This document shows positions 6,796 through 29,413 of a stretch of 64,000 nt of DNA, piece after piece. Within the stretch, counting starts at the first letter, position 1. Each line of letters begins with the position of its first letter. Origin of the DNA: a bacterium BMS3Abin14 (GTDB taxonomy: Bacteria > BMS3Abin14); the NCBI GenBank assembly GCA_002897695.1, contig BDTG01000028.1, positions 27,231 through 91,230 of the forward strand. Reading direction: 5' to 3'. The notes below the pieces were generated by a model. The model was not told the DNA's origin. It saw only the letters and a list, made by a program, of their open reading frames with translations, and ran no database searches. A program made the position numbers and the translations under genes.

Positions 6796-8223
6796 ATGAA
6801 AAAATTCACGGTCCTTGTTGTTGATGATGACAAATTTTCCAGAACTTTCTGCCGCCAGATCCTGGAGGAAGAGGGAAATGTGGTGGTTGAAGAGTCCGCA
6901 GGGGTGGATGAGGCCCTGGGCAGGGTAAAAGATGGTGGAATCGATCTTGTTGTTTCCGACATGGTCATGCCGGACAAGTCAGGCCTTGACCTTGTACAAA
7001 GTTTAAGCGTTGAGTCACCTGACCTCAAGGTCATCGTTATTACCGGCCACGCCTCAATTGAGAACGCGGTTGAGGCCATGAAACTCGGTGCGCTGGACTA
7101 CATACGAAAACCTCTGAACCCCGGTGAGTTCAAGGTGGTCGTTCAGCACGCTCTCGATCGAATGACCCTCACCAGGGAAAACAGGGAGCTCAAGAGCAGC
7201 CTAAACCTCTACAATGTGAGCAGTCGGATCATGCGAACCATTGAGATTGAGGAACTGTATGAGGTCGTCTTCGAAAAGATGCTACAGGAGGTTGGGGCCA
7301 CAAGCGGGTTTCTTTATCTCATCGACCAGGAACAAGGTGAATCGAACATCGTTATCTCCGAGGGTTTCGATGTGGATCGTAATCCTGATCTTGACCGGAA
7401 GGTCTTTGAACTATACGGGGTCGCACTGTCCGAGACAACGCTCCCGTACTGTCCCGAGGTTGTTCTCCCCCTGAAGATCAACTACAGGAGCAGGTCCGAT
7501 TCCATTCTTTCCATTATCTTTATCCCTCTCAGAAGCAAGAGTGACCTGGTCGGAATGGTGGTATTTTTTGACACCGAACAGGAGAGCGCCTTCGATGACG
7601 AGGACCTGAAAGCGGCCCAGTTCCTCTGTGATCATGCCGGTTCTGCTTTTGAAAACGCACTTTTATACTCCAAGGCAAAAATCCTCACTATTACCGATGA
7701 TCTGACCAGCGTGTTTAACTACCGGTATCTGAATAATATTCTTGACCGTGAAATGCTCAGGGCTGAAAGGCTGGAGTCGTCCATGTCCGTTCTCTTCCTG
7801 GATCTGGATTCGTTCAAGAAGGTCAATGACCGGTTCGGGCATCTGGTGGGGAGTAAAATTCTGGTTGAACTGGCCGGCCTGCTCAAGGAAGCTGTGCGAA
7901 AGGTCGATGCCGTTGCGCGATACGGTGGCGATGAGTACATCATCGTTTTGACGGATACATTTGCCGAAGGGGCTGTGATCGTTGCAGAACGAATCCGGCA
8001 GATGATTGAAGAGTTTGTCTTCCTCGAAGAGGAGGGATATTCTATTCGCCTGACGATCTCCATAGGGGTCGCCTCCTATCCGGAGCATGCCCAGAGCAAG
8101 GCGGAACTGCTGCATCTCGCCGATGAGGCAATGTACAGGGGCAAGTTCGGCAAGAAAAACGTTGTCTATCTTGCCGTTCCCGGCCAGGGAAGTTCGGGCT
8201 CCAGTATTCTATCAGCCCCCTGA
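6796..8223 (+). CDS. Response regulator with receiver, GAF and GGDEF-type domains (probable diguanylate cyclase)
   Basis: ATG 6796 is preferred over an upstream in-frame TTG (6766) because the receiver core starts right after it and GGGGAAGG lies just upstream. The 475 residues hold a receiver (about 1-120: acidic pocket VVDDD, phospho-acceptor in SDMVMPDKSGLD, conserved lysine in IRKPL), a GAF domain (about 145-290) and a GGDEF domain (about 300-460). The signature reads RYGGDEYIIVL; GGDEY is a tolerated variant of GGDEF, so cyclase activity making cyclic-di-GMP is likely. An upstream RxxD inhibitory site is not obvious. It follows comEC by about 50 AT-rich bases, and hisS begins 25 bases after its stop. 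Confidence 0.88.
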   Translation: MKKFTVLVVDDDKFSRTFCRQILEEEGNVVVEESAGVDEALGRVKDGGIDLVVSDMVMPDKSGLDLVQSLSVESPDLKVIVITGHASIENAVEAMKLGALDYIRKPLNPGEFKVVVQHALDRMTLTRENRELKSSLNLYNVSSRIMRTIEIEELYEVVFEKMLQEVGATSGFLYLIDQEQGESNIVISEGFDVDRNPDLDRKVFELYGVALSETTLPYCPEVVLPLKINYRSRSDSILSIIFIPLRSKSDLVGMVVFFDTEQESAFDDEDLKAAQFLCDHAGSAFENALLYSKAKILTITDDLTSVFNYRYLNNILDREMLRAERLESSMSVLFLDLDSFKKVNDRFGHLVGSKILVELAGLLKEAVRKVDAVARYGGDEYIIVLTDTFAEGAVIVAERIRQMIEEFVFLEEEGYSIRLTISIGVASYPEHAQSKAELLHLADEAMYRGKFGKKNVVYLAVPGQGSSGSSILSAP

Positions 8224-8248
8224 GAAAAAGGGTAAAGGTCAAACTTCA

Positions 8249-9523
8249 ATGCACAAAGCGATCAAGGCGATACGCGGCTTCAGCGATGTTCCGACCGAGG
8301 ATGCCTGGAAATACACCTATATTGAAAATTGCGCCCGGCGGCATTTTCAGCTGTATGGCTACAGGGAGATACGGCTTCCGGTGCTTGAGTACACCGAACT
8401 GTTTTCAAGAGGGATCGGCGAGGCCACGGATATTGTTGAAAAGGAAATGTATACTTTCCCCGACCGTAAAGGGAGAAGCCTGACCCTCCGTCCCGAGGGA
8501 ACCGCATCCGCGATGCGCGCATACCTGGAAAGGGGATGGCACTCTAACGGGGCTCTCAGTAAACTCTTCTATTCCGGCCCCATGTTCCGGCATGAGAGGC
8601 CGCAGAAGGGCCGGTATCGCCAGTTCTATCAGCTTGGGTTGGAGGCCATCGGCCATGGCGGGCCTTTGGTGGATGCCGAGGTAGTCGACCTTCTGTACCG
8701 GTTTTTCCTCCGAATGGATGTCCAGGACGTCAGGATCCTCCTTAACAGCCTGGGGTGCGAGGATTGCCGACCCGGGTTCCGTGATAAATTGCTGGTTTTT
8801 CTCGGGTCCGTCTCCGACAGGCTATGCTCAAATTGCAGAAGAAGGACACAGACAAACCCTCTCAGGGTCCTGGATTGCAAGGTGCCGACCTGTCAGGAGG
8901 CTCTAACAGGCGTCCCGGTAATGGTGGATTCTCTTTGCGATGAATGCCGGGACCATTTTTCCGGCGTGTGCCGTACCCTGGACGGTCTTGAAGTGCCTTA
9001 CACCGTAGACCCCAGGATCGTTCGCGGCCTGGACTACTACAGCAGGACCGCAATTGAGGCCGTCTGTGACCGTCTGGGTTCCCAGAACGCTGTGGCGGCC
9101 GGCGGGCGATACGATGGCCTGGCTCGGCAGATCGGAGGGGATGTGCCGGGAATCGGGTTTGCCCTGGGTGTTGAACGTCTGAAGCTGATTATGAAATGGG
9201 ATTCTCCTGCTCCTCCGGTTCCCGACTATTATCTTGCGGGCGCCACACCCGATGCAAGGATCCCCGTTATGAAATTGGCGGATCAAATCAGGGGATTCGG
9301 GATTCGGGCCGAGGTTGATCTGGAGGAAAGGAGCCTTAAGGCACAGATGAGGCGTGCAAATAGAATGTCGGTACACAAGGTGGTTATCATCGGGGATGAC
9401 GAGCTGTCGAGAGGAACCGTGACGCTGAAAGATTTTTCCAGTAATAAACAGGAGGAGATCTCTCGAGATAATTTTCTCGCTGGACTGATCAGAACCGGAG
9501 AAAACCTGAAAGGAGCGGAGTGA
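8249..9523 (+). CDS. hisS: Histidyl-tRNA synthetase
   Basis: Charges tRNA-His with histidine in the cytoplasm. From ATG 8249 the product is 424 residues, normal for bacterial HisRS. Class II motifs are clear: the N-terminal IKAIRGFSDV, motif 2 around GPMFRHERPQKGRYRQFYQL, the histidine-A signature GLDYYSRTAIEA, and motif 3 GIGFALGVERL. The C-terminal anticodon-binding domain (about 325-424) is present. The frame stays open upstream into the preceding gene, but homology starts at MHKAIKAIRG, which decides the start. The stop codon overlaps the ATG of the next gene (TGATG at 9521-9525), so the two are translationally coupled. Confidence 0.97.
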   Translation: MHKAIKAIRGFSDVPTEDAWKYTYIENCARRHFQLYGYREIRLPVLEYTELFSRGIGEATDIVEKEMYTFPDRKGRSLTLRPEGTASAMRAYLERGWHSNGALSKLFYSGPMFRHERPQKGRYRQFYQLGLEAIGHGGPLVDAEVVDLLYRFFLRMDVQDVRILLNSLGCEDCRPGFRDKLLVFLGSVSDRLCSNCRRRTQTNPLRVLDCKVPTCQEALTGVPVMVDSLCDECRDHFSGVCRTLDGLEVPYTVDPRIVRGLDYYSRTAIEAVCDRLGSQNAVAAGGRYDGLARQIGGDVPGIGFALGVERLKLIMKWDSPAPPVPDYYLAGATPDARIPVMKLADQIRGFGIRAEVDLEERSLKAQMRRANRMSVHKVVIIGDDELSRGTVTLKDFSSNKQEEISRDNFLAGLIRTGENLKGAE

Positions 9524-11190
9524 TGGTTACGTCGGGAAGCCTGAAGGCGATAGGTCTTGCAAAATTGCTCGCCGATGCCGAGAGCCGGGGGTTCACAGGG
9601 TCATTGACCCTTAAGGGCAAGACAGGCCTTGCCGGTATTACCCTTAAGGATGGCCATGTCGTTGATGTTCAGGAACCACGGATCAGGAGCCGCCTCGGCC
9701 GTTACCTGGTGACGAAGAACCTCATTACCGAGAAGGAACTCCAGGCGGCTTTGAATACGCAGAAACAGTCGGGTAAAGGAAAATTTCTTGGTGAGATCCT
9801 TGTTGACCAGGCGGTTCTGGACAGGAAAACCCTCGACAGTTCCATGAGGAATGTCGTTGAGGACTCCCTTGTCCATCTCCTCGGGTGGGAAGAAGGGCTG
9901 TACAGGGTTGAGCCCCTGGACGTTGTGGTGGGTGATCCCGTGGAAATAGCCCCCATCCCGGAGCTCCTCTCAAGGACGGCTCAACTTGCCTCGGCTGTGG
10001 AGGAGGAATGGATTATCAGCGAAATTCTTCCTGACGGTGGGGAGCTTGAAAATGGTGTAAGGGGTGAGATCCTCGCGGCGGTTCGCAGGGTCAGCCAGAA
10101 GTTGAGGGAGCTCAAGCCACAGGAGATCGTTCTCATGGTTGAGGATGAGGCCCTTATGCGTAAGATGTTCAAGGACAAACTGGAGAGTTTTGGTTTTGAT
10201 GTGGACGCTGTGGAGTCGCCGCAAAAGGCCATCGAAAAGCTTTCCGACTACGACCTGGAGGGAAAGCTGCCCATCGTTCTGGCGGATCTTATCATGCCCA
10301 CCATCAGCGGCAAGGGTATATTCGGCGGGCTGGAACTGCTTGAGGAGATACAGAAGACCCACAGCCATGTTCCCGTAATAGTCAACACGGCCTACCCGGA
10401 TCCGACCATAAGGAGAAGGGCCCTTTTCCTGGGCGCGACCTATTATATAAACAAACCTGAAAGAAAGGACATCACCCCCGACAAGCTTGAAAATCAGTTG
10501 AACCTCTTTATTGAGGAGGTCGCCCTCTGCATACAGAATGTTATCCAGAGGCATGAGATTTATTTCGAGAGGGAGCAGCAGAACATTCTGCGGGAGGAAC
10601 TTCTTTCCCAGCTCATTCAATCCCGCGAGGAATTGCAGAAAGTGGGGGAACTTGTTCAAAGGGACACGGGGGATATTCGTTTCCTTCGTGAGACCAGCGA
10701 CAAGATGGTGCATAACAAGAGTCTGGCGAAGATGGCAGAGACCATCGTCCAGTTCGCAGGTGATGAGATGGACCGGAGCGCCATCTTCCTGATCAGGCGG
10801 GAAAAGGTGGCGGGTTTTTTCGGCCACGACAGAAGGTCTGATCAGGATGATTTTGGAGATCGTATAAGAGGCCTGAACTTTACCCTGGAAGATTCTCCAG
10901 CTATCCAGGAAGCGGTAATCTCCAGGGACGGGGTCGTCAAACGGAACCCGGGAGATGCTCTGGGATCCGCGCTGTTGGAAGTATTCGGGGATTCTCCTCC
11001 CGAACATTCGGTAATACTCCCCCTGCTGGTGCAGAATATGGTCGTTGCGGTTTTATACTGCGATGTCGTAGCCGGAGGGACCCCGCCGCGGGAGCTGGAT
11101 TCACTGGAAATCCTGCTGAACCTGGCTTCCATGTCCCTGGAGATCCAGCAGCAGCATGCGATTATCCAGAGGCTCAGACAGAGCAGTTAG
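9523..11190 (+). CDS. DUF4388-receiver-GAF regulatory protein
   Basis: A 555-residue cytoplasmic signalling protein. Residues 1-155 match the DUF4388 (PATAN-like) fold typical of deltaproteobacterial and cyanobacterial regulators (GFTGSLTLKGKTGLAGITLK, then GRYLVTKNLITEKELQAALN). About 200-325 is a receiver: VEDEALMRKMF, acceptor aspartate in VLADLIMPTISGKGIFGGLE, and lysine in YYINKPERKD. It carries a few extra residues after the acceptor loop. A coiled-coil segment (about 345-400) leads to a C-terminal GAF-like domain (about 405-550). There is no DNA-binding or enzymatic output domain, so it probably works through protein contacts. AGGAGCGG precedes the start, and ATG 9523 overlaps the hisS stop; a GTG three bases earlier is an alternative. 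Confidence 0.85.
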   Translation: MVTSGSLKAIGLAKLLADAESRGFTGSLTLKGKTGLAGITLKDGHVVDVQEPRIRSRLGRYLVTKNLITEKELQAALNTQKQSGKGKFLGEILVDQAVLDRKTLDSSMRNVVEDSLVHLLGWEEGLYRVEPLDVVVGDPVEIAPIPELLSRTAQLASAVEEEWIISEILPDGGELENGVRGEILAAVRRVSQKLRELKPQEIVLMVEDEALMRKMFKDKLESFGFDVDAVESPQKAIEKLSDYDLEGKLPIVLADLIMPTISGKGIFGGLELLEEIQKTHSHVPVIVNTAYPDPTIRRRALFLGATYYINKPERKDITPDKLENQLNLFIEEVALCIQNVIQRHEIYFEREQQNILREELLSQLIQSREELQKVGELVQRDTGDIRFLRETSDKMVHNKSLAKMAETIVQFAGDEMDRSAIFLIRREKVAGFFGHDRRSDQDDFGDRIRGLNFTLEDSPAIQEAVISRDGVVKRNPGDALGSALLEVFGDSPPEHSVILPLLVQNMVVAVLYCDVVAGGTPPRELDSLEILLNLASMSLEIQQQHAIIQRLRQSS

Positions 11191-11313
11191 ACTCACAGGC
11201 AGGGGACTTCGAGTCACGTTTACCTGTCACGTCGCAGCTCAAGTGAAGACCGGCAGCGTGACGAGCGGGCGAGAGAAAAAGGTTTTTATCCGGACTGATA
11301 TTGGGAGGATAAG

Positions 11314-13116
11314 TTGGATACGGGATCAGATGCACTGGACCAGCAGGGTGATTGGGAGCGAACGCACAACTGTGGAACCCTGAAAAAAGATAATATCGGG
11401 AATGAGGTCATCCTCATGGGTTGGGTCCTTCGCAGAAGGGATCACGGCGGGTTGATCTTCGTCGATCTGAGAGACCGGTGGGGCATAACCCAGGTAGTTT
11501 TCAACCCGGAGAGGGAACCTGAATCCCACGGGAAAGCTGAGCGCCTGAGATCCGAATACGTTATCGCCGTCAGGGGTGAGGTGTCTCCAAGACCCGAAGG
11601 CATGGGAAACCCTGGTCTGGTCACGGGAGCGATTGAGGTGCTGGTTGACGAGTTGAGGGTTCTCAACTCCAGTCTGACCCCCCCGTTTTCCCTTGACGAG
11701 CGTGAGGGTGGGGATGTCGCTGAAATCGTCCGCCTCAAGTACCGGTACCTGGCCCTGCGGCGGGACACCCTGAAAAACAATATGATACAGCGTTCCCTCT
11801 TGGCGAAATGGGTCAGGGACTATTTTTACGATGAGGGATTTCTCGAGATAGAGACACCCTTTCTCACAAAAAGCACCCCAGAGGGCGCCAGGGATTATCT
11901 TGTGCCCAGCAGGGTTAGCCAAGGTAACTTCTACGCACTTCCACAGTCCCCACAGCTTTTCAAACAGATCTTGATGGTAGCCGGGTTCGACCGCTATTTC
12001 CAGATTGTACACTGTTTCAGGGACGAGGACCTGCGTGCGGACCGGCAGCCGGAGTTTACCCAGATCGACGTGGAGATGTCCTTTCCCACGGTTGACACCC
12101 TGTTCGATATAATGGAGCGGATGATGTCCGGGGTCTTCCGGTTCGCCCTGGACCTGGACATAGCGGGACCCTTTCCACGACTGGGTTATGGGGAGTGCCT
12201 TGACAGGTTTGGACTGGACAGGCCGGACACAAGATTCGGGATGGAGCTGGTTGACCTGACGGAGATCCTTGGCTGTACCGAGGCGAGAGTGTTCTCCGAA
12301 ACCGTGGCGGCCGGCGGTATTATCAGAGGGCTGACGGTTAAGGATGGGGGTGGAATGTCCCGCAGAGAGCTCGATGAGCTTACAGCCTATGTGGGGGTTT
12401 ACGGGGCAAAAGGGCTGGCCTGGTTCAAGTATTCCGAGAATGGCTGGCAGTCTCCCCTGGCCAAGTTCATCGGTGAGGACGAAAAAGCGCGGGTGTCCCA
12501 AACGGCCATGTTTGAACCGGGCGACCTGCTTCTGGTAGTCGCGGGCGCCTCCGGCATGGTTAACGAGTCGTTGGGGCAGCTGCGGGTCCACCTCGGGAAC
12601 ATGCTCGACCTCATACCTGCTGACCGCTACGATTTTCTCTGGGTTACCGATTTCCCCCTTTTCGAATACGACGAGAAGGCGGGCAGGTACAACTCCATGC
12701 ACCACCCGTTCACCTCCCCGGTGGAAGAAGACCTGCCCCTCCTCGAAACGGACCCCGGCCGGGTCAGGGCCAAGGCCTACGACATGGTCCTGAACGGGTC
12801 TGAGATCGGTGGCGGCAGCGTTCGTATTCACCGGCAAGACGTACAGAGCACCGTATTCAAGCACCTGAACATAGGACCTGATGAGGCAAGCGAAAAATTC
12901 GGATTTCTCCTTGACGCGCTGCAGTACGGCGCCCCTCCTCACGGCGGCATCGCATTCGGTCTGGACCGCATTATGATGATACTGACCGGATCTGCCTCCA
13001 TCAGGGACGTCATTCCTTTTCCCAAGACCCAGAAAGCCGCTTGTCTCATGACCGATGCGCCCAACCCTGTTGATCCAACCCAGCTTATGGAACTTGGACT
13101 GAAGCTGCGCCGGTAA
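11314..13116 (+). CDS. aspS: Aspartyl-tRNA synthetase
   Basis: Charges tRNA-Asp (or tRNA-Asp/Asn if non-discriminating) in the cytoplasm. It is 600 residues, the usual bacterial length. It has the N-terminal OB-fold (GWVLRRRDHGGLIFVDLRDR), class II motif 2 (FRDEDLRADRQPEFTQIDVE), the STPEGARDYLVPSR loop, the bacterial GAD insertion in the middle, and motif 3 (GIAFGLDRIMMILTG). Start TTG 11314 follows GGGAGGAT with good spacing, and the typical RTHNCG beginning lies 15 residues in. No ATG fits as well. Whether it also feeds an Asp-tRNA(Asn) amidotransferase cannot be decided here. An open antisense frame covers the gene but is only a shadow. Confidence 0.97.
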   Translation: MDTGSDALDQQGDWERTHNCGTLKKDNIGNEVILMGWVLRRRDHGGLIFVDLRDRWGITQVVFNPEREPESHGKAERLRSEYVIAVRGEVSPRPEGMGNPGLVTGAIEVLVDELRVLNSSLTPPFSLDEREGGDVAEIVRLKYRYLALRRDTLKNNMIQRSLLAKWVRDYFYDEGFLEIETPFLTKSTPEGARDYLVPSRVSQGNFYALPQSPQLFKQILMVAGFDRYFQIVHCFRDEDLRADRQPEFTQIDVEMSFPTVDTLFDIMERMMSGVFRFALDLDIAGPFPRLGYGECLDRFGLDRPDTRFGMELVDLTEILGCTEARVFSETVAAGGIIRGLTVKDGGGMSRRELDELTAYVGVYGAKGLAWFKYSENGWQSPLAKFIGEDEKARVSQTAMFEPGDLLLVVAGASGMVNESLGQLRVHLGNMLDLIPADRYDFLWVTDFPLFEYDEKAGRYNSMHHPFTSPVEEDLPLLETDPGRVRAKAYDMVLNGSEIGGGSVRIHRQDVQSTVFKHLNIGPDEASEKFGFLLDALQYGAPPHGGIAFGLDRIMMILTGSASIRDVIPFPKTQKAACLMTDAPNPVDPTQLMELGLKLRR

Positions 13117-20817: not shown

Positions 20818-21567
20818 TTACCTGAACCTTATGTTGTGCTTTTGAACGGCCTTAACCAGATATTCTATCTCGCCGGGATGGAGGATTCCCTTCTTGACAA
20901 AGAATTCCCCTATGGGCCGCTGGAGCCAACGCTGAAAGCCAAGGACCGCGGAACGCTGGTAGGGAGTCATGTACCCCAGGCGAAGCGCTGAGCCGCCTAT
21001 CCTTTCCCCGAACACTCTTTCCGCTGAGATGATGTGAAGCTCCTCTGAATTAAGAAACTTCCACGTGGCGGCAATATGGCCGAAAGAGGGACGCTGACGT
21101 CTCTGCCAGGTAATGGCCTTGATAAGGGTTCTCCAGGATATGATCCCGGAGTAGTAAAGGTACTGGCCCAGCAGAAGCCTGTTCTCGGGAACCAGACCCT
21201 GCCAGAAATGGTCATGGGTTTTCCCGCCCGTTTCTGATGCCCTGTTTTCGGCCGGGTCTTCGCGGGGGGTGTTGCGGGGCTGAGGATTCGTCCGGTGAAC
21301 AGTCGTGGATAGGTCCTCCGATGACAGGAAAGCCAGAAGGCTGGAGTAGGCCTGAGTTACTGCTATGAAATGTTCGGCCATCTCATTCTCATCCTTGCCC
21401 TGAATTCTGGCCCTGTCCGGATGAAGCTCCAGAGCCTTTCTCCTGAAGGTGACCTTCAGGCCTGAAGGCCCCAGCGTTCGCAGAAACTCATCGGTCACCT
21501 CGACATCGGCGCCGAAAAGCACCCTGAATGCCGAAGTGATCTCCCGGGTATTTAACGCGGTATTCAA
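20818..21567 (-). CDS. J-domain (DnaJ-like) protein
   Basis: A 249-residue protein read leftwards. It begins near TTG 21567, which has GGGAGG 9 bases upstream, and reads LNTREITSAFRVLFGADVEV, then a J-domain-like helix pair with the HPD signature in RRKALELHPDRARIQ (about residues 55-68) and AEHFIAVTQAYSSLLAFL. J-domains stimulate the ATPase of DnaK-type Hsp70s. The C-terminal half (about 140-249) is a second conserved region (LLLGQYLYYSGIISWRTLIK, then PIGEFFVKKGILHPGEIEYL) of unknown role. The frame stays open for about 150 codons upstream, but that part reads through repeats and lacks protein character. Similar J-proteins are familiar from Geobacter-type genomes. Confidence 0.75.
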   Translation of the reverse strand: MNTALNTREITSAFRVLFGADVEVTDEFLRTLGPSGLKVTFRRKALELHPDRARIQGKDENEMAEHFIAVTQAYSSLLAFLSSEDLSTTVHRTNPQPRNTPREDPAENRASETGGKTHDHFWQGLVPENRLLLGQYLYYSGIISWRTLIKAITWQRRQRPSFGHIAATWKFLNSEELHIISAERVFGERIGGSALRLGYMTPYQRSAVLGFQRWLQRPIGEFFVKKGILHPGEIEYLVKAVQKHNIRFR

Positions 21568-22084
21568 GGACCAGAACCTCCCTAAGTCTCCAGCTACAAA
21601 CAGAAGAATCGCTTGCAGGCACAAAAGCGACAACCGCAACTTTACAGTGACGCTATTCTGGGTAATAAACGTGCATGTGTCAAGTGTCTTGAACGTGGTC
21701 CAATGTCCAATGTCCAACGGGGAAAAGCCGGATGTGGTGACACGGAGACACGGAGAAAAACGAAGAGGGGGGATAAGAGCAGGCGGTGGGCTCGATTTAA
21801 CAGGGATGAAGGGGATGAAAACAGGCGATGGGCAGTAAGAGCAAGTTTGTAGTTTGAGGCTTGAGGTTAAAATCTGGCACTGAAACCTTGGTGAAACAGA
21901 CATGGGAGCAAGGGAGTAAGGGCGTATCGAAGCATCGAAGAATCGAAGAATCTCAAACTCGCCTATATTATGTGACAATTGTCTTGTCCGGTTCGACGTG
22001 GTATGCCTCGATCCCAAAAACGACTTTTAAAAAGGGAGACTTTTGGTGTCGGGCAAGCCCATTAATGTCATTATCGGGGACGGG
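21568..22084. other. Gene-free, repeat-rich left flank of the accessory region
   Basis: About 500 bases with no credible gene. The stretch holds three TGTCCAA-type heptamers (21697-21717), a GTGACACGGAGACACGGAG segment, a GCAAGTTTG/GTTTGAGG unit (21841-21868), and a short tandem run of ATCGAAG-like units near 21925-21955. The mix looks like accumulated intergenic repeat debris at an integration hot spot. Confidence 0.6.
21697..21870 (+). repeat. Left copy of the inverted repeat flanking the accessory island
   Basis: AATGTCCAATGTCCAACGGG (from 21702), followed by GGAAAA and, about 115 bases later, GCAAGTTTG and GTTTGAGG. The reverse complement of 29390-29344 reads AATGTCCAACGTCCAACGGG, then GGAA and GCAAGTTTGAGGTTTGAGG. 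The two blocks therefore match in inverted orientation, with one mismatch in the first 23 bases. The left copy carries an extra segment between its two blocks. Confidence 0.7.
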
Positions 22085-22480
22085 GAAAATCCCTCGTCTT
22101 TAGGTGAAGGGAAGGATGTGATAACATAATTATGTCAGATATCGATTGAACGTGAGATAGAGATCCTGTCGGGTAAAGTTGGCAGCGACCATGTTCACGT
22201 TTTTATATCCTGTCGTCCGAGTCATAATATCAGTGTATCAGTCAGGTAGTGCAATGGTTGAAGGGAATCAGTTTCCGGGTGCTTCTTTAAGGAGTTTCCC
22301 CACTTGCGCAAGCAATTTTGGGGTCGTCATTTTTGGGCTCGCGGCTATCTTGCTGTTTCCTCCGGTACCATCACAGATGAGATGATCCAGGAGTATATTG
22401 AAGAGCAAGAAGGGGAGCCGATTCATGATGACAGTCAATTTCCAGTTGACAACCCTTAAACCCATCGCCTTTTAGGCGAG
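22085..22480 (+). mobile_element. Degenerate IS200/IS605-type element with both end hairpins
   Basis: The left end shows a wobble-paired hairpin TCGTCTTTAGGTGA (about 22093-22106). The right end shows a perfect hairpin TCGCCT-TTT-AGGCGA (22465-22479). The two hairpins share the same sequence pattern, as IS200/IS605 ends do. Between them lies a broken Y1 transposase. At about 400 bases it is shorter than a complete tnpA-only element, so part of the 5' gene is missing. The right end lies about 10 bases before the HEPN fragment. Confidence 0.75.
22133..22459 (+). pseudogene. Remnant of IS200-type Y1 (HUH) transposase TnpA
   Basis: Translation gives REIEILSGKVGSDHVHVFIS with the HUH catalytic pair (HVH, codons 22190-22198). 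After a disrupted stretch comes KEFPHLRKQFWGRHFWARGY, followed by TITDEMIQEYIEE and a TAA at 22457-22459. TnpA normally nicks single-stranded DNA at hairpin ends through an active tyrosine. Here the N-terminal quarter is absent, and in-frame stops at about 22235-22250 sit where the LVQWLKG segment moves into another frame and back, so two compensating frameshifts have killed it. The tyrosine-bearing helix seems retained. The element cannot transpose by itself but might be mobilised in trans. Confidence 0.8.
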
Positions 22481-22489
22481 GAGTATCCA

Positions 22490-22985
22490 GTGGAGTCGAG
22501 GCTGCGGACAAACATGCCTCCAGTGAAAGCGAGCTTTCTTGCTATGACTCAAAACCATGCGAAAGATAACAATCAAATGCAGGCCTCGTTTGCGACTTTA
22601 CTGAGTGGGGCGGCTGAGGCCCTTGCAAATTATCTTGACAGGCTATTGCCTTCACTTCTTGATAACTGGTGGAAAAATGCTGTGGTGGACAAGCTGTCTT
22701 TTCAGCAACACCGCGGATCAAACAGAAAGGAATAGTCCACCTCTCATCATTGGATCTTGCTGCCTTGCTTCGGGTGTTGGATCAGAACTGGTACCAGATT
22801 TCAATGAAGATGAATCTATCCCCGGAAGTTCGCCATTTTGTTAAAGAAATGCAGACAGTTCGCAATCGGTGGGCGCACGCCGGCAGTGAAGGATTTCCGG
22901 TCGACGATGTATACCGTGACTTGGACACCCTGCAACGTTTTGCCACAGTCATTGAGGCGGACGAAGCTCTGCTTCAAGAAGTACG
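22490..22985 (+). pseudogene. Swt1-like HEPN module, frameshifted away from the downstream helicase
   Basis: Frame 2 from 22490 reads ATLLSGAAEALANYLDRLLP and DNWWKNAVVDKLSFQQ, then hits TAG at 22733. The homology continues one frame back (from about 22712) as SSLDLAALLRVLDQNWYQI and VKEMQTVRNRWAHAG, then DDVYRDLDTLQRFATVIEAD. RNRWAH (22861-22878) fits the HEPN RNase motif R-x4-H with a polar residue after the Arg. The module resembles the N-terminal Swt1-type HEPN domain of large helicases in defence loci. A second backward step near 22980 is needed to join the helicase frame. Both steps look like single-base deletions. If real, the RNase part is lost; if assembly errors, the gene is one long HEPN-helicase. 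Confidence 0.7.
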
Positions 22986-25949
22986 GTGGAGGGTGAGACG
23001 CAGACATACTACGCATCGCAACTCAAAGCTGAAGACCGGCAGGAAGCCGAGTCCCGATTCTTGCCGTGCGAGGAATTTCATTCCTACCTCACCGCGCTGC
23101 AAATTCGATATCCGGGACTCTCCACGCTCTATTCCTTGAATGCCGCACGAGCCGATTTTATCCCCTATCAGTTCCGGCCCGTCTTGCGGTTTATCAGATC
23201 AGACCGTCCTCGATTGCTGGTCGCCGATGGCGTGGGCGTCGGCAAGACAATCGAAGCGGGTCTGATTCTCCGAGAACTGCAGGCACGACGAGATATACGC
23301 TCGATCCTCATCATATGCCCTCGCCCTCTTGTTACCGAGCGTAAGTGGCAGATTGAGATGAAGCGGTTTGAAGAGCGTTTTATTCATCTTGACGGTGGGA
23401 CGCTCAGGTATTGCATAAACGAAATGGATTTGGAAGGAACCTGGCCAGAGCAGCACCAGCGAGTCATCATCCCATATTCCTTATTCGACGAAGTCCTTCT
23501 CTATGGCTCGGGCTCTGACGGCAAACGAAAGTGCAAAAAGGGGTTGTTGGATTTGGACCCACCCCCTCGCTTCGATCTGGTTATCGTGGATGAGGCGCAC
23601 CACATCCGGAATCAGGATACGTTCAGCCACAAAGCCGTGCGGTTTTTCTGTGACCATGCGGAAGCCGTGGTCTTTCTGACAGCGACGCCGATTCAACTTG
23701 GCAGCCATGACCTCTTTGTTTTGCTGAACACCCTCCGCCCCGACCTTATTATCGACCAAGAGAGCTTTGAGCACATGTCAGAGCCGAATCCGTTTATAAA
23801 CCAAGCGGTCGCATTGGCGCGTGCCCAGGAACCGGACTGGACGACCCAGGCCAATGAAGCTCTCGATCAGGCTGCTGGGACACCCTGGGGACAATCGATT
23901 CTTAAACATAATCCTGAATTCAACCGCATACATACTCTAATTTCGAAAGGCAAAATCGGATTGGAGGAGCGTGTACAGCTGATTACCGACCTCGAGGCGT
24001 TACATACCTTCTCCGGGATAATCAATCGAACGCGACGCCGCGATATCGGGGAGTTCACGATCCGAAATCCGGAAACCGTGGTTGTTGAATTTACCCCCCC
24101 CCAAAAAGAGCTTCATGACGAACTGATTCAAGTCCAGGCGGAGATATTCAGCAGACTTCATGGGGATGTTAACGTCAAGTTCATGATGACAACAATTAGA
24201 CGTCAGGCTGCGAGCTGCCTTTTCGGCCTCGCCCCTTTCCTTGACGAAATTCTCAACCGGCATCTTGATGAATTATCATGGGAGGAGGCCGACAACACCG
24301 AACCAGTTCCACAAAGCGACATCATCGATAGCATCGAATCACGAATTAAAACCATCCTTGAGAAGGCGCGTGCTCTCGATCCGAATGACCCCAAGCTTGA
24401 CGCTCTCCGTAAAGTCATAAGAGACAAGCAGGGTCTGCCAAACAACAAAGTGATGCTTTTTAGCAGTTTTCGGCACACGCTTCACTATCTCTATGAACAT
24501 CTGAACGCAGATAGTTTTCGGGTTGGAATGATTCATGGCGGCACACCTGACGAGGACCGTGTCGATCTTCGTAACCGCTTTGAGATGCAGCGAGATCAGG
24601 ATAACGGTCTCGACGTTCTTCTGTTTTCCGAGATCGGTTGTGAAGGCTTGGACTACCAGTTCTGTGATTGCATTGTGAACTATGACCTGCCCTGGAATCC
24701 GATGCGGATTGAGCAGAGAATAGGACGAATTGACCGCTGGGGGCAGAAAAGTGAAAAGGTGGCTATCTTCAATATGATTACGCCAGGGACTGTGGACGCG
24801 GACATCTATGAACGCTGTCTGGTTCGCATAGGAGTGTTCAATAATGCCCTGGGCGGTAGTGAAGAGATACTTGGTGAAATCAGTCGAGAAATTCGTAATA
24901 TTGCGGATAACTTCTCTCTGAGTGAAGCTGAGCGCGGAGAGCAGTTCCAACAATTAGCGGACAATAAGATCAGGCTAATACAAGAACAGGATGACCTCGA
25001 GCAGAAACAACTTGAGCTATTCGGCATCCGTCTTCCTCAAGACCAAATGAAGCGGGAAATCGAACAGGCGTCGAGTTTCTGGCTGTCTCCCTCTTCAATA
25101 CGAAGGCTCATAACGATTTACCTTCAGCGGGTTTGCGGAAAGGAACAGGAGTTCATACTCGGCGAGAAAGCACTGAAAACGCTTCGGCTTTCGCAAGAAT
25201 CAAGGAGTAGTGTACTACGGGATTTTCAAAGACTACCCCGCCAGAACACGTCCGCGTATCGAGAATGGGAAAACTGGTTGAAGGGTGGCAACCCTCATCT
25301 TCTAATGACCTTCGAGTCCGAGTGCGCTTCGCACCACCCTGAGGCCGTTTTCATTATGCCCCTCCATCCCTTGGTAAAACAGGCGGCCATGGCATTCGAT
25401 GCCAGAAAGCGCGTATTTACAGCCCTGAAGGTTAACAGCAATGATGTCCCGAAAGGCAGATACGAATTCGCCATCTTCCAATGGCAGTTCCATGGCGTTA
25501 GGGAGGATTTGGTCTTGCGGCCTGTTGCTTCCTCGGACGTGGTGACCGAACACCTTCCAGGTCTTGTTGAGAAAGCGGAAGGAGATCCCACTGGAAGGAT
25601 CGACGTCGCAGATCCCGCCATTTGGGATGGTCTGGATGCGCAGCATCACAGGCTGTGGTCTGAAGCACGCAAAAACCATCAACGAAAGACCCAGGAACTG
25701 GCTGAATACCGGAGGGAGAGTTTGACAACGAGCCACAGAGCCCGGATCTCACTTCTTGAAGAACAACTGGGTCAAGCGAGTAATGACAAAATCAGGCGGA
25801 TGCGCCAAGCTCAAATTGCAGCGGCTGAAGCGGATTACGCGCGTCGCATTCAAGAATTGGATATTGCTATGGAACGGGCCGATATTACCGCCCAACCGGT
25901 GGCGTATGGGGTAATCCACATCGATGGAGGGTTGTCGGATGCCGAGTGA
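22986..25949 (+). CDS. SNF2/RapA-like superfamily 2 helicase of a HEPN-helicase defence-type protein
   Basis: 987 residues from GTG 22986, which may be an artificial start because the preceding HEPN module probably belonged to the same polypeptide. Motifs: Walker A GVGVGKT (82-88) in VADGVGVGKTIEAGLILREL, DEAH box (202-205) in VIVDEAHHIRN, motif III LTATPIQ (231-237), and helicase C-terminal motif VI QRIGRIDRWGQ (577-587). A long C-terminal region (about 620-987) has coiled-coil stretches and no recognised nuclease motif. The family translocates on duplex DNA or remodels protein-DNA complexes. Its stop overlaps the next gene by 11 bases. Together with a sacsin-like ATPase this resembles helicase-ATPase defence operons, but no methyltransferase is present. 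Confidence 0.85.
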   Translation: MEGETQTYYASQLKAEDRQEAESRFLPCEEFHSYLTALQIRYPGLSTLYSLNAARADFIPYQFRPVLRFIRSDRPRLLVADGVGVGKTIEAGLILRELQARRDIRSILIICPRPLVTERKWQIEMKRFEERFIHLDGGTLRYCINEMDLEGTWPEQHQRVIIPYSLFDEVLLYGSGSDGKRKCKKGLLDLDPPPRFDLVIVDEAHHIRNQDTFSHKAVRFFCDHAEAVVFLTATPIQLGSHDLFVLLNTLRPDLIIDQESFEHMSEPNPFINQAVALARAQEPDWTTQANEALDQAAGTPWGQSILKHNPEFNRIHTLISKGKIGLEERVQLITDLEALHTFSGIINRTRRRDIGEFTIRNPETVVVEFTPPQKELHDELIQVQAEIFSRLHGDVNVKFMMTTIRRQAASCLFGLAPFLDEILNRHLDELSWEEADNTEPVPQSDIIDSIESRIKTILEKARALDPNDPKLDALRKVIRDKQGLPNNKVMLFSSFRHTLHYLYEHLNADSFRVGMIHGGTPDEDRVDLRNRFEMQRDQDNGLDVLLFSEIGCEGLDYQFCDCIVNYDLPWNPMRIEQRIGRIDRWGQKSEKVAIFNMITPGTVDADIYERCLVRIGVFNNALGGSEEILGEISREIRNIADNFSLSEAERGEQFQQLADNKIRLIQEQDDLEQKQLELFGIRLPQDQMKREIEQASSFWLSPSSIRRLITIYLQRVCGKEQEFILGEKALKTLRLSQESRSSVLRDFQRLPRQNTSAYREWENWLKGGNPHLLMTFESECASHHPEAVFIMPLHPLVKQAAMAFDARKRVFTALKVNSNDVPKGRYEFAIFQWQFHGVREDLVLRPVASSDVVTEHLPGLVEKAEGDPTGRIDVADPAIWDGLDAQHHRLWSEARKNHQRKTQELAEYRRESLTTSHRARISLLEEQLGQASNDKIRRMRQAQIAAAEADYARRIQELDIAMERADITAQPVAYGVIHIDGGLSDAE

Positions 25950-28900
25950 CTACGAACAGATTTGCAAGGATAATATTCGCCGTCGTGGTGAGGAATTTGA
26001 CGACATAGGTCAGCTCATATCAGAACAACTCCACAGTGATCGCACACATTTTATCTACGAGCTTCTTCAAAACGCTGAAGATGCACTAGGGCGTCGCAAG
26101 CGAAACAATCCAGAAAGTGAATTGCCCACCAACGTTAAGTTTCTTCTCTATAAAGATAGAATGGAATTTAGACACTTCGGGGAAAACTTTAACATAGAAG
26201 ATGTAAAAGGCATTTCAAACGTTCTTAAAGGCACCAAGTCCGAAGATAAGACTCAAATTGGAAAATTTGGCATAGGATTTAAGTCAGTATATGCATTTAC
26301 TTCAACACCAGAAATTCACTCTGGAGCCGAACATTTTATTATCGAACGATATATTCGACCTCGAAGCGCTGATAAATTTCCACAAATAGCCAGCGGAGAG
26401 ACAACCTTTGTTTTCCCCTTCAATCATAAAGACCTTTCAAAAGAACAAGCATTTCAGCTCATAGAAGAGAAGCTGAAAAAGATTGGTTCCCGCATCTTAC
26501 TTTTCCTGGGTAACATAACGGAAATTAAATGGAAAATTGAAGACCAAGATGAAGGACTATATCTTAAAGAATCAAAACAGCAAGGCCAGTTCGCCCAAAA
26601 GGTTACTGTGATAGGACAGCACGGAAATGAAAATGAAGAAGAGGAGTGGCTTGTTTTCAGACGACAGATTGAGGCTGGGAATTCATCTTTTGAGAGTTTT
26701 GTTGAAGTAGCATTCAGATTAAAAAATGATGTAAAATTAGAAAGAGAAATTATACAGAAAATTGAATCTTCTCCATTGATTGTTTATTTCCCCACAAAAC
26801 TTGAGACGCGTTTTGGTTTTTTTGTTCATGGTCCTTATGACACTACTGCTTCGCGTTCGGACATTGAAAATAACGAATGGAATAGAAGACTAATCATCGA
26901 AACGGCAGATCTTTTAACCGAAATAGTCTTGCCTTGGTTAAAGGAAAATAGGTTATTAACTCCCAGTTTTCTTGAGGCTCTACCAATCAGACTCGATGTA
27001 TTTCCACAAGATAGCTTATTTCGGCCAATATATGAAAAGGTGCGGGGTGCACTAAGAAATCAAGATTTTCTTCCGACAACAGATGGTAATTACGTTGCCG
27101 GGAAGCGTGCAGTGCTCGCTCGCGCTGAAGACCTTGTGAACTTAATGAGCTCGGAACAACTTTCCTTCCTATTAAGCAAATCGATAAAATTAGAATGGCT
27201 TACAACAGATATAACGGAAAATAAAAAAGATATCCATCGATATTTAGTTGGTTGGAAGCCAGGCTACTACGATACTGGAGAGGAGACAGAATCACTTATT
27301 GTTGCTGAGATTCGCCCACAAGATTTAATTGAAAAACTTACGTCTGATTTCCTAGAGGCGCAAAGTATCACCTGGCTACTTAAATTTTATGCTTTTTGTG
27401 AAAAACGCCCCACACTTATTGACAAGTTAAAAAATAAACCTGTTGTTCGTCTCGAAGAAGGTCCTTATGTTATTCCATTCAAGCAAGACGGTTCTCCTAA
27501 TGCTTACTTGCCACCTGAAAACGATACAGAGTTTCCAGTGGTGTCCAGAAAAATATCTAAAGATGAAAAGGCGCTTGAATTCCTCAAGAAATTAGGGCTC
27601 ACAAAGCCTGATGCAGTTGCTGAAGTGATAGAACATGTTCTTCCCAAATACAGGCAATCTAATCCTGATATCTCAGATGATGAACATCGCCAGGACATAA
27701 AAAAAATCCTAAAGGCTTACGAAACTGACTCTCAAAAAAAGAAGAGAAGACTGATAGAACAGTTACAGGCAACGGAGTTTATTTTTACGGAAACACCCGG
27801 CATAGAAACGACCAGTTTCAGAAGGCCAATTGACGCGTATTTCTGGAGTAATGAGTTGGAAGCATACTTTTCTGGCAGCAACACAGTTGGTTTCGTTAGG
27901 CCAGAATTTTATAATCAGTCCGTCTTGGCGGTTTTCGAAGATCTGGGAGTCACTGATAAGATACGAATACGATGTAAGTCAAAAAATGGTTCAGTGGATT
28001 ACATGCAGCTTGAATATAAGAATTGGCATAGGCGTGGGCTAAGAGGTTTTGATCCAGATATTCAAATAGACGGAATCCAATATGCCATAAAGAATCCATC
28101 AGGTGAAAAGAGCAAAATCATTTGGAACGAAGTAGCGGTAAAGTACAGTCATTGCATTAAGGGCAAAATTATAAGATCAAGCCGGCAAGATTTTTCACTG
28201 AATGCAAGCGTCTACGAAGAAGAGGAATTAACGTCAAATTTTGGCCGATTATTGATGGACACCCCTTGGCTGCCAGATAAGCAAGACAACTTTCATAAAC
28301 CCGCTGAACTCAAGCTCGACGATCTACCGGAATCATTTGTTCGTGATGAAAAACCGGTCAACCAGTTAGGTATGAAGAAAGATGTTGTCGCTAAACTTGC
28401 GGAAGAAGCAGGTATTTCATTAGATAATATCGAAAAGGCCAAGAAAATTGCTGAAGCCTCTCCAGAAGTCAAAGAACAAATTGACTTATTGCTCTCTAAT
28501 TCCAACGAAAAACAGCCGGAATTCCCCCGAAAAGCCTCATCGAATGTTGACCGCCGCAGAAAAAAAACAACTGAAAAATACCATAAGGCACCCAAAAAGA
28601 AATATGAAAAGAAACCTTACAGTAAAAAGGTTACTGAAAATACTATAGATCCCAAAATTTGGCTGAGAGAAACATATACGAACAAAGAAAGGCAGATGAT
28701 TTGCCAAATATGCCAGAATGAAATGCCCTTCAAAAAGAAGGATAGCCAGTATTATTTTGAAGCCGTCGAATTATTGAATGATTTTGATCGCGAGATGGAA
28801 GAGTTTTATATTGCCCTGTGCCCCCTATGTGCGGCTATGTATAACGAATTTGTGAAACATGACAAAGGTGCCATGGAGCCTTTGAAAAACGCGTTGATAA

Positions 28901-29010
28901 ATTCGGACGACGCTGAAGTCCCGCTGCAGCTTGGAGAGCTGGACACAAGTGTCCGGTTTGTCGAGACCCATTATCACGATATACAGACTATTCTCGAGGA
29001 GCGAAAATAA
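25939..29010 (+). CDS. Sacsin-like GHKL ATPase with C-terminal four-cysteine (zinc-finger/HNH-like) domain
   Basis: A 1023-residue protein. The N-terminal Hsp90/histidine-kinase-type ATPase shows the N-box ELLQNAEDAL (41-50), a D/G-box equivalent EFRHFGENFN, and the lid motif GKFGIGFKSVYAF (108-120), as in sacsin-type ATPases. The middle (about 200-830) is large and not recognised. A Lys-rich linker (about 865-905) leads to C922/C925 (CQIC) and C961/C964 (CPLC), a likely zinc site. The gene is visibly AT-richer than its surroundings (AAA, GAA and ATT codons dominate), a sign of transfer. ATG 25939 follows GGAGGG with 7 bases between. No signal peptide, so cytoplasmic. Phage defence is inferred from the helicase partner and mobile surroundings, not shown. 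Confidence 0.8.
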   Translation: MPSDYEQICKDNIRRRGEEFDDIGQLISEQLHSDRTHFIYELLQNAEDALGRRKRNNPESELPTNVKFLLYKDRMEFRHFGENFNIEDVKGISNVLKGTKSEDKTQIGKFGIGFKSVYAFTSTPEIHSGAEHFIIERYIRPRSADKFPQIASGETTFVFPFNHKDLSKEQAFQLIEEKLKKIGSRILLFLGNITEIKWKIEDQDEGLYLKESKQQGQFAQKVTVIGQHGNENEEEEWLVFRRQIEAGNSSFESFVEVAFRLKNDVKLEREIIQKIESSPLIVYFPTKLETRFGFFVHGPYDTTASRSDIENNEWNRRLIIETADLLTEIVLPWLKENRLLTPSFLEALPIRLDVFPQDSLFRPIYEKVRGALRNQDFLPTTDGNYVAGKRAVLARAEDLVNLMSSEQLSFLLSKSIKLEWLTTDITENKKDIHRYLVGWKPGYYDTGEETESLIVAEIRPQDLIEKLTSDFLEAQSITWLLKFYAFCEKRPTLIDKLKNKPVVRLEEGPYVIPFKQDGSPNAYLPPENDTEFPVVSRKISKDEKALEFLKKLGLTKPDAVAEVIEHVLPKYRQSNPDISDDEHRQDIKKILKAYETDSQKKKRRLIEQLQATEFIFTETPGIETTSFRRPIDAYFWSNELEAYFSGSNTVGFVRPEFYNQSVLAVFEDLGVTDKIRIRCKSKNGSVDYMQLEYKNWHRRGLRGFDPDIQIDGIQYAIKNPSGEKSKIIWNEVAVKYSHCIKGKIIRSSRQDFSLNASVYEEEELTSNFGRLLMDTPWLPDKQDNFHKPAELKLDDLPESFVRDEKPVNQLGMKKDVVAKLAEEAGISLDNIEKAKKIAEASPEVKEQIDLLLSNSNEKQPEFPRKASSNVDRRRKKTTEKYHKAPKKKYEKKPYSKKVTENTIDPKIWLRETYTNKERQMICQICQNEMPFKKKDSQYYFEAVELLNDFDREMEEFYIALCPLCAAMYNEFVKHDKGAMEPLKNALINSDDAEVPLQLGELDTSVRFVETHYHDIQTILEERK

Positions 29011-29331: not shown

Positions 29332-29343
29332 TTGCTCCCCCGC

Positions 29344-29413
29344 ATCCCTCAAACCTCAAACTTGCCCTTCCCCGTTGGACGTTGGACATTCTTTCTCACG
29401 TTGAACGTTGGAC
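29344..29413 (-). repeat. Right copy of the inverted repeat flanking the accessory island
   Basis: CCTCAAACCTCAAACTTGCC, then CCCCGTTGGACGTTGGACAT ending near 29390, with an extra CGTTGAACGTTGGAC to 29413. Read on the minus strand it matches 21702-21725 and 21841-21868 of the left flank in order. Confidence 0.7.

Follow-up and report, generated by a model that had tools for sequence, protein, structure and literature searches.

A frameshifted HEPN-helicase gene beside a sacsin-type ATPase in the bacterium BMS3Abin14, and exchange of the ATPase behind related helicases

The locus described here lies in a stretch of 64,000 nucleotides of contig BDTG01000028.1 from the bacterium BMS3Abin14 (the window, to which all coordinates refer). 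It contains a gene for an SNF2-type helicase and a gene for a sacsin-type ATPase of 1023 residues, which stand head to tail with an overlap of 11 bases, as a first-pass annotation made from the letters alone had already stated. Sacsin-like ATPases of bacteria appear in catalogues of defence genes (PADLOC TmtA, Tiamat), but no established role is known to us. The features of the locus are as follows.

22127 to 22459, plus strand: frameshifted relic of a transposase gene of the IS200 type (Y1) (PF01797 Y1_Tnp, 4.8e-12 and 5.6e-6 in translated pieces)
22544 to 22714, plus strand: first half of a HEPN_Swt1 domain, in the frame of 22490 (49% identity over 57 aa to G238)
22713 to 22715, plus strand: 1-nt deletion that breaks the HEPN frame (DNA alignment with the three intact relatives G171, L063 and G238)
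22714 to 22986, plus strand: second half of the HEPN domain (PF18731, 2.3e-15), with RNRWAH at 22861-22878
22985 to 22997, plus strand: junction left by the loss of about 204 nt, with a second frame shift (G171 residues 144-211 missing)
22986 to 25949, plus strand: SNF2 helicase of the RapA/DrmD type, 987 aa, frame still open
25939 to 29010, plus strand: sacsin-type GHKL ATPase, 1023 aa, GC 0.40 (PF25794, 2.4e-13)
28654 to 29007, plus strand: C-terminal zinc-type domain with CQIC/CPLC, conserved among relatives, weakly resembling HNH

The helicase matches the Pfam families SNF2-rel (E 2.5e-16) and Helicase_C (6.6e-20), and the motifs GVGVGKT, DEAH and QRIGRIDR are all found, which bears out the assignment made in the first pass. 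RapA is its best PDB match by sequence (1.3e-32), and DrmD is the top defence profile (PADLOC 2e-115, NCBIfam 4e-90) and fits far better than RapA does. The protein is 73-75% identical to the fused HEPN-helicases of G171 and L063 and 55% identical to that of G287. As synonymous sites are saturated, codon-position counts were used in place of dN/dS. At columns invariant in four relatives, changes private to the window stand at 5%, 2% and 46% for codon positions 1, 2 and 3, and by these counts the helicase was under purifying selection on the window branch until recently. For this ORF no clear start site stands out, and the deletion at its 5' end fuses two frames.

For the ATPase, the SACS match is joined by NCBIfam P_loop_sacsin (1.9e-21), and the only PADLOC family matched is TmtA (3e-67, residues 26-800). 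The predicted model (pLDDT 76, pTM 0.55) resembles Hsp90/TRAP1 (Foldseek, 3e-11) and sacsin SR1 (2e-6), and by sequence, too, sacsin SR1 and Hsp90 are the closest structures solved. The Bergerat-fold residues E46, N50 and D53 and the loop residues G113, F115, G116 and G118 are invariant in eight relatives (numbering from 25924), so that both the G-x-F-G-x-G loop and the E, N and D residues of a GHKL/Hsp90-like ATPase of the sacsin type are present. The middle region is the most variable part of the protein, and the C-terminal approximately 118 residues with the CxxC/CPLC motif, likewise seen in the first pass, are conserved across the relatives. The fold matches of this C-terminal domain (model pLDDT 73) are weak: the first seven VIA rows are all HNH proteins, with Z values of only 2.5-4.5, and a Foldseek search with the domain gave no significant match (E 0.89 or worse). 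The catalytic histidines of HNH are absent, since the corresponding segments YFEAVELL and CPLCAAMYNEF hold no histidine there, and the same is true of most relatives.

In the first-pass annotation, a Swt1-like HEPN module was taken as a separate partner of the ATPase that may act as a toxic RNase. The homology itself is well founded: the second half of the domain reaches 57.3 bits with PF18731 against a cut-off of 27.5, contains the R-x4-6-H motif and shares 71-78% identity with G171 and G238 over a length of 91 aa. When the HEPN piece was used as a search query, however, the same domain was recovered as the N-terminal part of proteins some 1200 aa long from other genomes, and the window carries two lesions. 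Protein-guided and DNA alignments place the residues up to about 52 in one frame, residues 53-143 in a second and those from 212 onward in a third, and at one and the same base of the window the similarity to G171 residue 143 stops and that to residue 212 starts in another frame. The segment removed by the larger deletion comprises a linker and a Tudor/SH3-like domain, called TUDOR in related helicases by a survey of BREX systems (PMC12839542). Because the domain is fused in the relatives and doubly damaged in the window, the reading as a separate gene was rejected, and the alignments indicate that HEPN is here the broken N-terminus of the helicase gene; the HEPN_Swt1 features give the family of the relic and do not mark a functional gene. 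A sequencing error might account for the 1-nt frameshift, but hardly for the 204-nt deletion. With the two halves out of frame with each other, no complete HEPN domain can be produced, and a role as toxic RNase fails in this genome.

Of the surroundings, the proposed flanking by transposon scars holds upstream, where stops and frame changes separate the matching pieces of the Y1 transposase relic, but downstream of the module no transposon relic was recognised in the window. The module as a whole lies between imperfect inverted repeats at 21702-21866 and 29340-29390 (23 nt at 96%, 30 nt at 80%). An adjoining ORF of 399 aa on the minus strand (20818-22017) has a weak DnaJ-type match and a weak, below-cut-off match to an MshE-like c-di-GMP motif. 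The deviant base composition likewise stands in part: the GC content falls from about 0.52 to about 0.37-0.40 at the boundary between helicase and ATPase and recovers after 29.0 kb, and GC3 is 0.36 in the ATPase gene; the helicase gene (GC 0.51, GC3 0.56) deviates only mildly from the genes around it. No RNA families were found around the module. There is no methylase gene beside the pair, and neither PF02384 N6_Mtase nor PF09369 MZB (DUF1998/DrmB), the two families searched, has a match in the assembly (2.28 Mb, estimated 100% complete), with control genomes positive in the same search; the first pass, too, had noted no methyltransferase at the locus.

In relatives, the ATPase gene lies directly downstream of the helicase gene in 17 of 17 testable loci. 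These are the window, G097, G171, G287, G436, G425 and G406, the Armatimonadetes contig L011, the virus-like contigs L063, L065, L066, L067 and L086 (MT835838), the plasmids of Ensifer, Rhizobium bangladeshense and Rhizobium BT03, and the more distant Methanomethylovorans hollandica. G065 was left out as belonging to another clade: its helicase (31% identity) groups with the Methanomethylovorans type, and no ATPase follows; the Methanomethylovorans pair itself is equally distant and was counted, having been found via both genes. Also uncounted are G428, L068, MT836112 and MT837207, in which the sequence ends inside or directly after the helicase, and L064, with a fragmentary ATPase on the opposite strand. 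The pair is conserved across many phyla and occurs also on plasmids and virus-like contigs. It is rare all the same: the helicase was found in 4 of 386 genomes across the domain and in 5 of 68 in one phylum, and both of the SACS-domain genomes among 20 sampled from one phylum carry the helicase pair.

The intact form can be read from G171 (1194 aa) and G287 (1186 aa), in which HEPN, an SH3-like segment and the helicase form one protein, with a sacsin-type ATPase directly behind. HEPN is fused to the helicase in twelve loci (G171, G287, G436, G425, G406, L063-L068 and L086), among them L064 with its fragmentary ATPase and L068, where the ATPase would lie beyond the contig part covered, and the R-x4-H motif is retained in all ten aligned HEPN-helicases. 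HEPN is missing from the helicases of G097, L011, the rhizobial plasmids and Methanomethylovorans, and the first three of these retain the Tudor/SH3-like domain. On rhizobial plasmids a small protein without Pfam match overlaps the start of the HEPN-less helicase (L024:8133-8687 and L025:8142-8672, 53% identical), and in L011 a second helicase fragment starts behind the ATPase (12352-12615, 46% identity to the window's over 96 aa). Neighbours of the pair include AbiE, an ABC-three-component system, R-M and BREX genes. The co-occurrence without a methylase and near defence genes that a neighbourhood check was to look for was thus seen, and, with the pair conserved beside defence genes, neither a lack of co-occurrence nor a purely housekeeping neighbourhood was encountered. 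Elsewhere such ATPases are partnered by UvrD-type helicases (L076, L077), type III R-M (L078, L081, L083) or PDC-S68 (L084).

While the order of the two genes is conserved, comparison of the sequences indicates that the ATPase has been exchanged repeatedly behind a conserved helicase, with relics left in two lineages. The helicases of G171 and L063 are 91% identical and their ATPases 22%; the values are 81% and 29% for G287 and G425, and 73% and 28% for the window and G171. G171 and L065 show the reverse (50% and 66%), and in the control pair G287 and G436 both genes agree (91% and 92%). The DNA similarity between G171 and L063 (90% over 3534 bp) ends 27 nt ahead of the helicase stop codon and resumes only at the last approximately 220 bp of the G171 ATPase gene, and in L063 a frameshifted relic of the G171-type ATPase tail stands behind a different ATPase gene. 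Likewise, G287 and G436 carry a relic of the G425-type ATPase behind their own; no relic of an older ATPase was found behind the window's own. In tree comparisons, the ATPase data reject the groupings G171+L063, window+G171+L063 and G287+G436+G425 (p-AU 8e-49, 4e-62 and 5e-65), and the helicase data reject G171+L065 (p-AU 3e-127). The GC drop in the window, which is limited to the ATPase gene, fits a replaced gene. In L049 (3453-6638) and L069 (516-3701), a second, different sacsin-type ATPase follows the first and a relic tail, and is 98% identical between the two genomes.

A fixed contact between the zinc-type domain and the helicase was considered, because with L063 left out the identity of the C-terminal domain rises and falls with helicase identity (Spearman 0.74, Mantel p 0.0005), which is not so for ATPase residues 131-420 (0.14, p 0.17). 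In L063, however, the zinc domain is replaced along with the rest of the ATPase, and as its inclusion lowers the correlation to 0.34 (p 0.06), such a contact is weakened to a lead.

The first-pass annotation suggested that the locus may be a reduced, methylase-free system, and as a special state this does not hold, since R-M or BREX methylases accompany some relatives and are missing beside others. The majority of pairs stand without a methylase next to them (for example G097, G171, G287, G406, G425, Ensifer and Rhizobium). In L063, by contrast, hsdM, hsdS, hsdR and an Mrr-type protein precede HEPN-helicase, ATPase and PDC-S68; in L068, type III mod and res precede the HEPN-helicase; and in L086, a human gut contig labelled phage (MT835838.1), HEPN-helicase and ATPase follow the terminal piece of PglX and a complete PglZ, the pair being inserted into a BREX locus. 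As pairs stand alone or sit in type I R-M or BREX loci, a methylase is optional company and not a lost core part. It was also considered whether the pair is an R-M or BREX accessory that lost its methylase partner; these three loci do place the genes behind methylase loci, but most pairs lack such a neighbour and those present differ in type, so that we regard this as improbable.

PDC-S68, a RecD-like protein, possibly belongs to the system as the product of its third gene. It adjoins the HEPN-helicase and/or a sacsin-type ATPase in L063 (10001-20819), L011 (2139-11903) and L013 (2407-6965), and in G010, of the same family as the window's genome, a PDC-S68 that is 84% identical to that of L063 follows a leftover C-terminal piece of the ATPase. 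The PADLOC label suggests a single-gene candidate, whereas in L063, L011 and G010 the protein is part of the same gene cluster; in the window and its genome PDC-S68 has no match. Further sacsin-type proteins were observed in other company: L081 and L083 (both 7872-13028) encode a protein of 1718 aa directly after type III R-M-like mod and res, with a TmtA-like N-terminus and a MkoA (Mokosh)-like C-terminus in the L081 copy, and on a Sulfuricurvum plasmid (L026:11938-19787) a complete qatABCD defence operon is directly preceded by a gene for a DUF3883 protein of the sacsin type.

Comparison with known systems, which had been suggested with PADLOC, gave DrmD as the best profile for the helicase and TmtA, over the N-terminal part only, for the ATPase. 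DISARM was rejected: the DrmD match is the best but reaches 303.4 bits in NCBIfam against a cut-off of 610, the genome has no match to DrmB or an N6 methylase and thus no other DISARM part, and the partner of the helicase is a sacsin-type ATPase. With Tiamat, the N-terminal half of TmtA is shared (residues 26-800 on profile positions 27-808 of 1302), but the PADLOC TmtA models comprise about 1060-1780 positions, the C-terminal approximately 500 positions of the best profile are unmatched with the zinc domain in their place, and, unlike TmtA, the ATPase has a coupled helicase gene upstream. The Hma and DUF499-centred BREX-related systems (PMC8565338, PMC12839542) have the same parts list of Swt1-HEPN, SNF2 helicase with Tudor and ATPase, but there HEPN is carried by the DUF499 AAA+ ATPase and the core includes a methylase, whereas here HEPN is part of the helicase protein and the ATPase belongs to the GHKL class. 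Hma was likewise rejected, as the ATPase is of another class (its PADLOC match is TmtA only, while HmaC is DUF499) and no HmaB-like methylase lies beside it. A fusion of a HEPN of the Swt1 family with a SWI2/SNF2 ATPase (WQE_15321), predicted to be active, has been described, and HEPN-SNF2 fusions as well as a role of HEPN as a suicide arm freed when restriction fails have been proposed (Anantharaman et al. 2013, PMC3710099). In the available portions of that paper, a link of sacsin and HEPN is made only for eukaryotic Sacsin, and neither a sacsin-type ATPase as partner gene nor its exchange is mentioned. HEPN-SNF2 fusions, DrmD-like helicases, Tiamat-like ATPases and PDC-S68 are thus already known; a search of open-access full texts on sacsin, Tiamat, HEPN with SNF2, DUF3883 and Hma found no description of the pair as a system or of partner exchange.

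We favour, with moderate confidence, the reading of the locus as the damaged form of a mobile module of two genes, very probably for phage defence, with the ATPase as sensor and the HEPN-helicase as effector. Domain content, gene coupling, lesions and exchange are shown, whereas defence, sensing, RNase activity and coupling through the zinc domain are inferred. Gene 1 of the intact module encodes one protein of about 1190 aa with a HEPN RNase domain, a Tudor/SH3-like domain and a RapA/DrmD-like SNF2 translocase, and gene 2, overlapping or abutting it, the sacsin-type GHKL ATPase. The latter would sense an invader feature with the variable middle region of an Hsp90-like clamp, and ATP-driven closing of this clamp would be relayed to the helicase, perhaps via the C-terminal zinc domain. 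The helicase would then act on DNA and free the HEPN arm, which would cut RNA and stop the infected cell. With HEPN and the Tudor/SH3-like domain lost, this genome would have at most a helicase-ATPase pair without RNase arm, or a dying module.

Both ORFs are open and the module may work in a reduced form. It is even conceivable that the window pair works as it is, as an HEPN-less anti-DNA defence for which the loss of HEPN and of the Tudor/SH3-like domain was tolerated or adaptive. The open frames of 987 and 1023 codons with all motifs kept, the purifying selection on the helicase and the natural HEPN-less examples (G097, L011, rhizobial plasmids) point in this direction. These examples keep the Tudor/SH3-like domain that the window has lost, however, the helicase lacks an evident start site, two frames are joined by the deletion, and the adjoining IS200 relic is also decaying, so that we think this rather unlikely. 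A RapA-like transcription or stress module without a defence function would agree with RapA as the nearest solved helicase and with Hsp90/TRAP1 as the best ATPase match, sacsin being an Hsp90-like chaperone. Yet the helicase is rare and patchy, occurs on plasmids and virus-like contigs with AbiE, R-M and BREX genes as neighbours, and is matched far better by DrmD profiles, and we give this possibility hardly any weight.

Within the favoured reading of a two-gene defence module, the ATPase might be an exchangeable recognition subunit, swapped through recombination at the gene boundary like the specificity subunits of type I restriction enzymes and re-aiming one HEPN-helicase effector at new phages, with the same kind of ATPase serving UvrD-nuclease, RecD-like (PDC-S68) and type III R-M partners; we put this forward tentatively, as somewhat less than an even chance. 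As an alternative to a sensor role, the ATPase could be swapped to escape phage inhibitors.

For the window, the analysis corrects the earlier reading, as HEPN is a broken helicase domain and no active toxin gene. While the parts themselves are known, the exchange of the ATPase is the point worth following, and two natural loci that combine 91% identical HEPN-helicases with unrelated ATPases offer a ready experimental pair. That a near-identical helicase has changed partners in nature, with relics of the former ATPase gene still present, gives direct evidence from evolution that the ATPase is the variable, and probably the recognising, part of the module.
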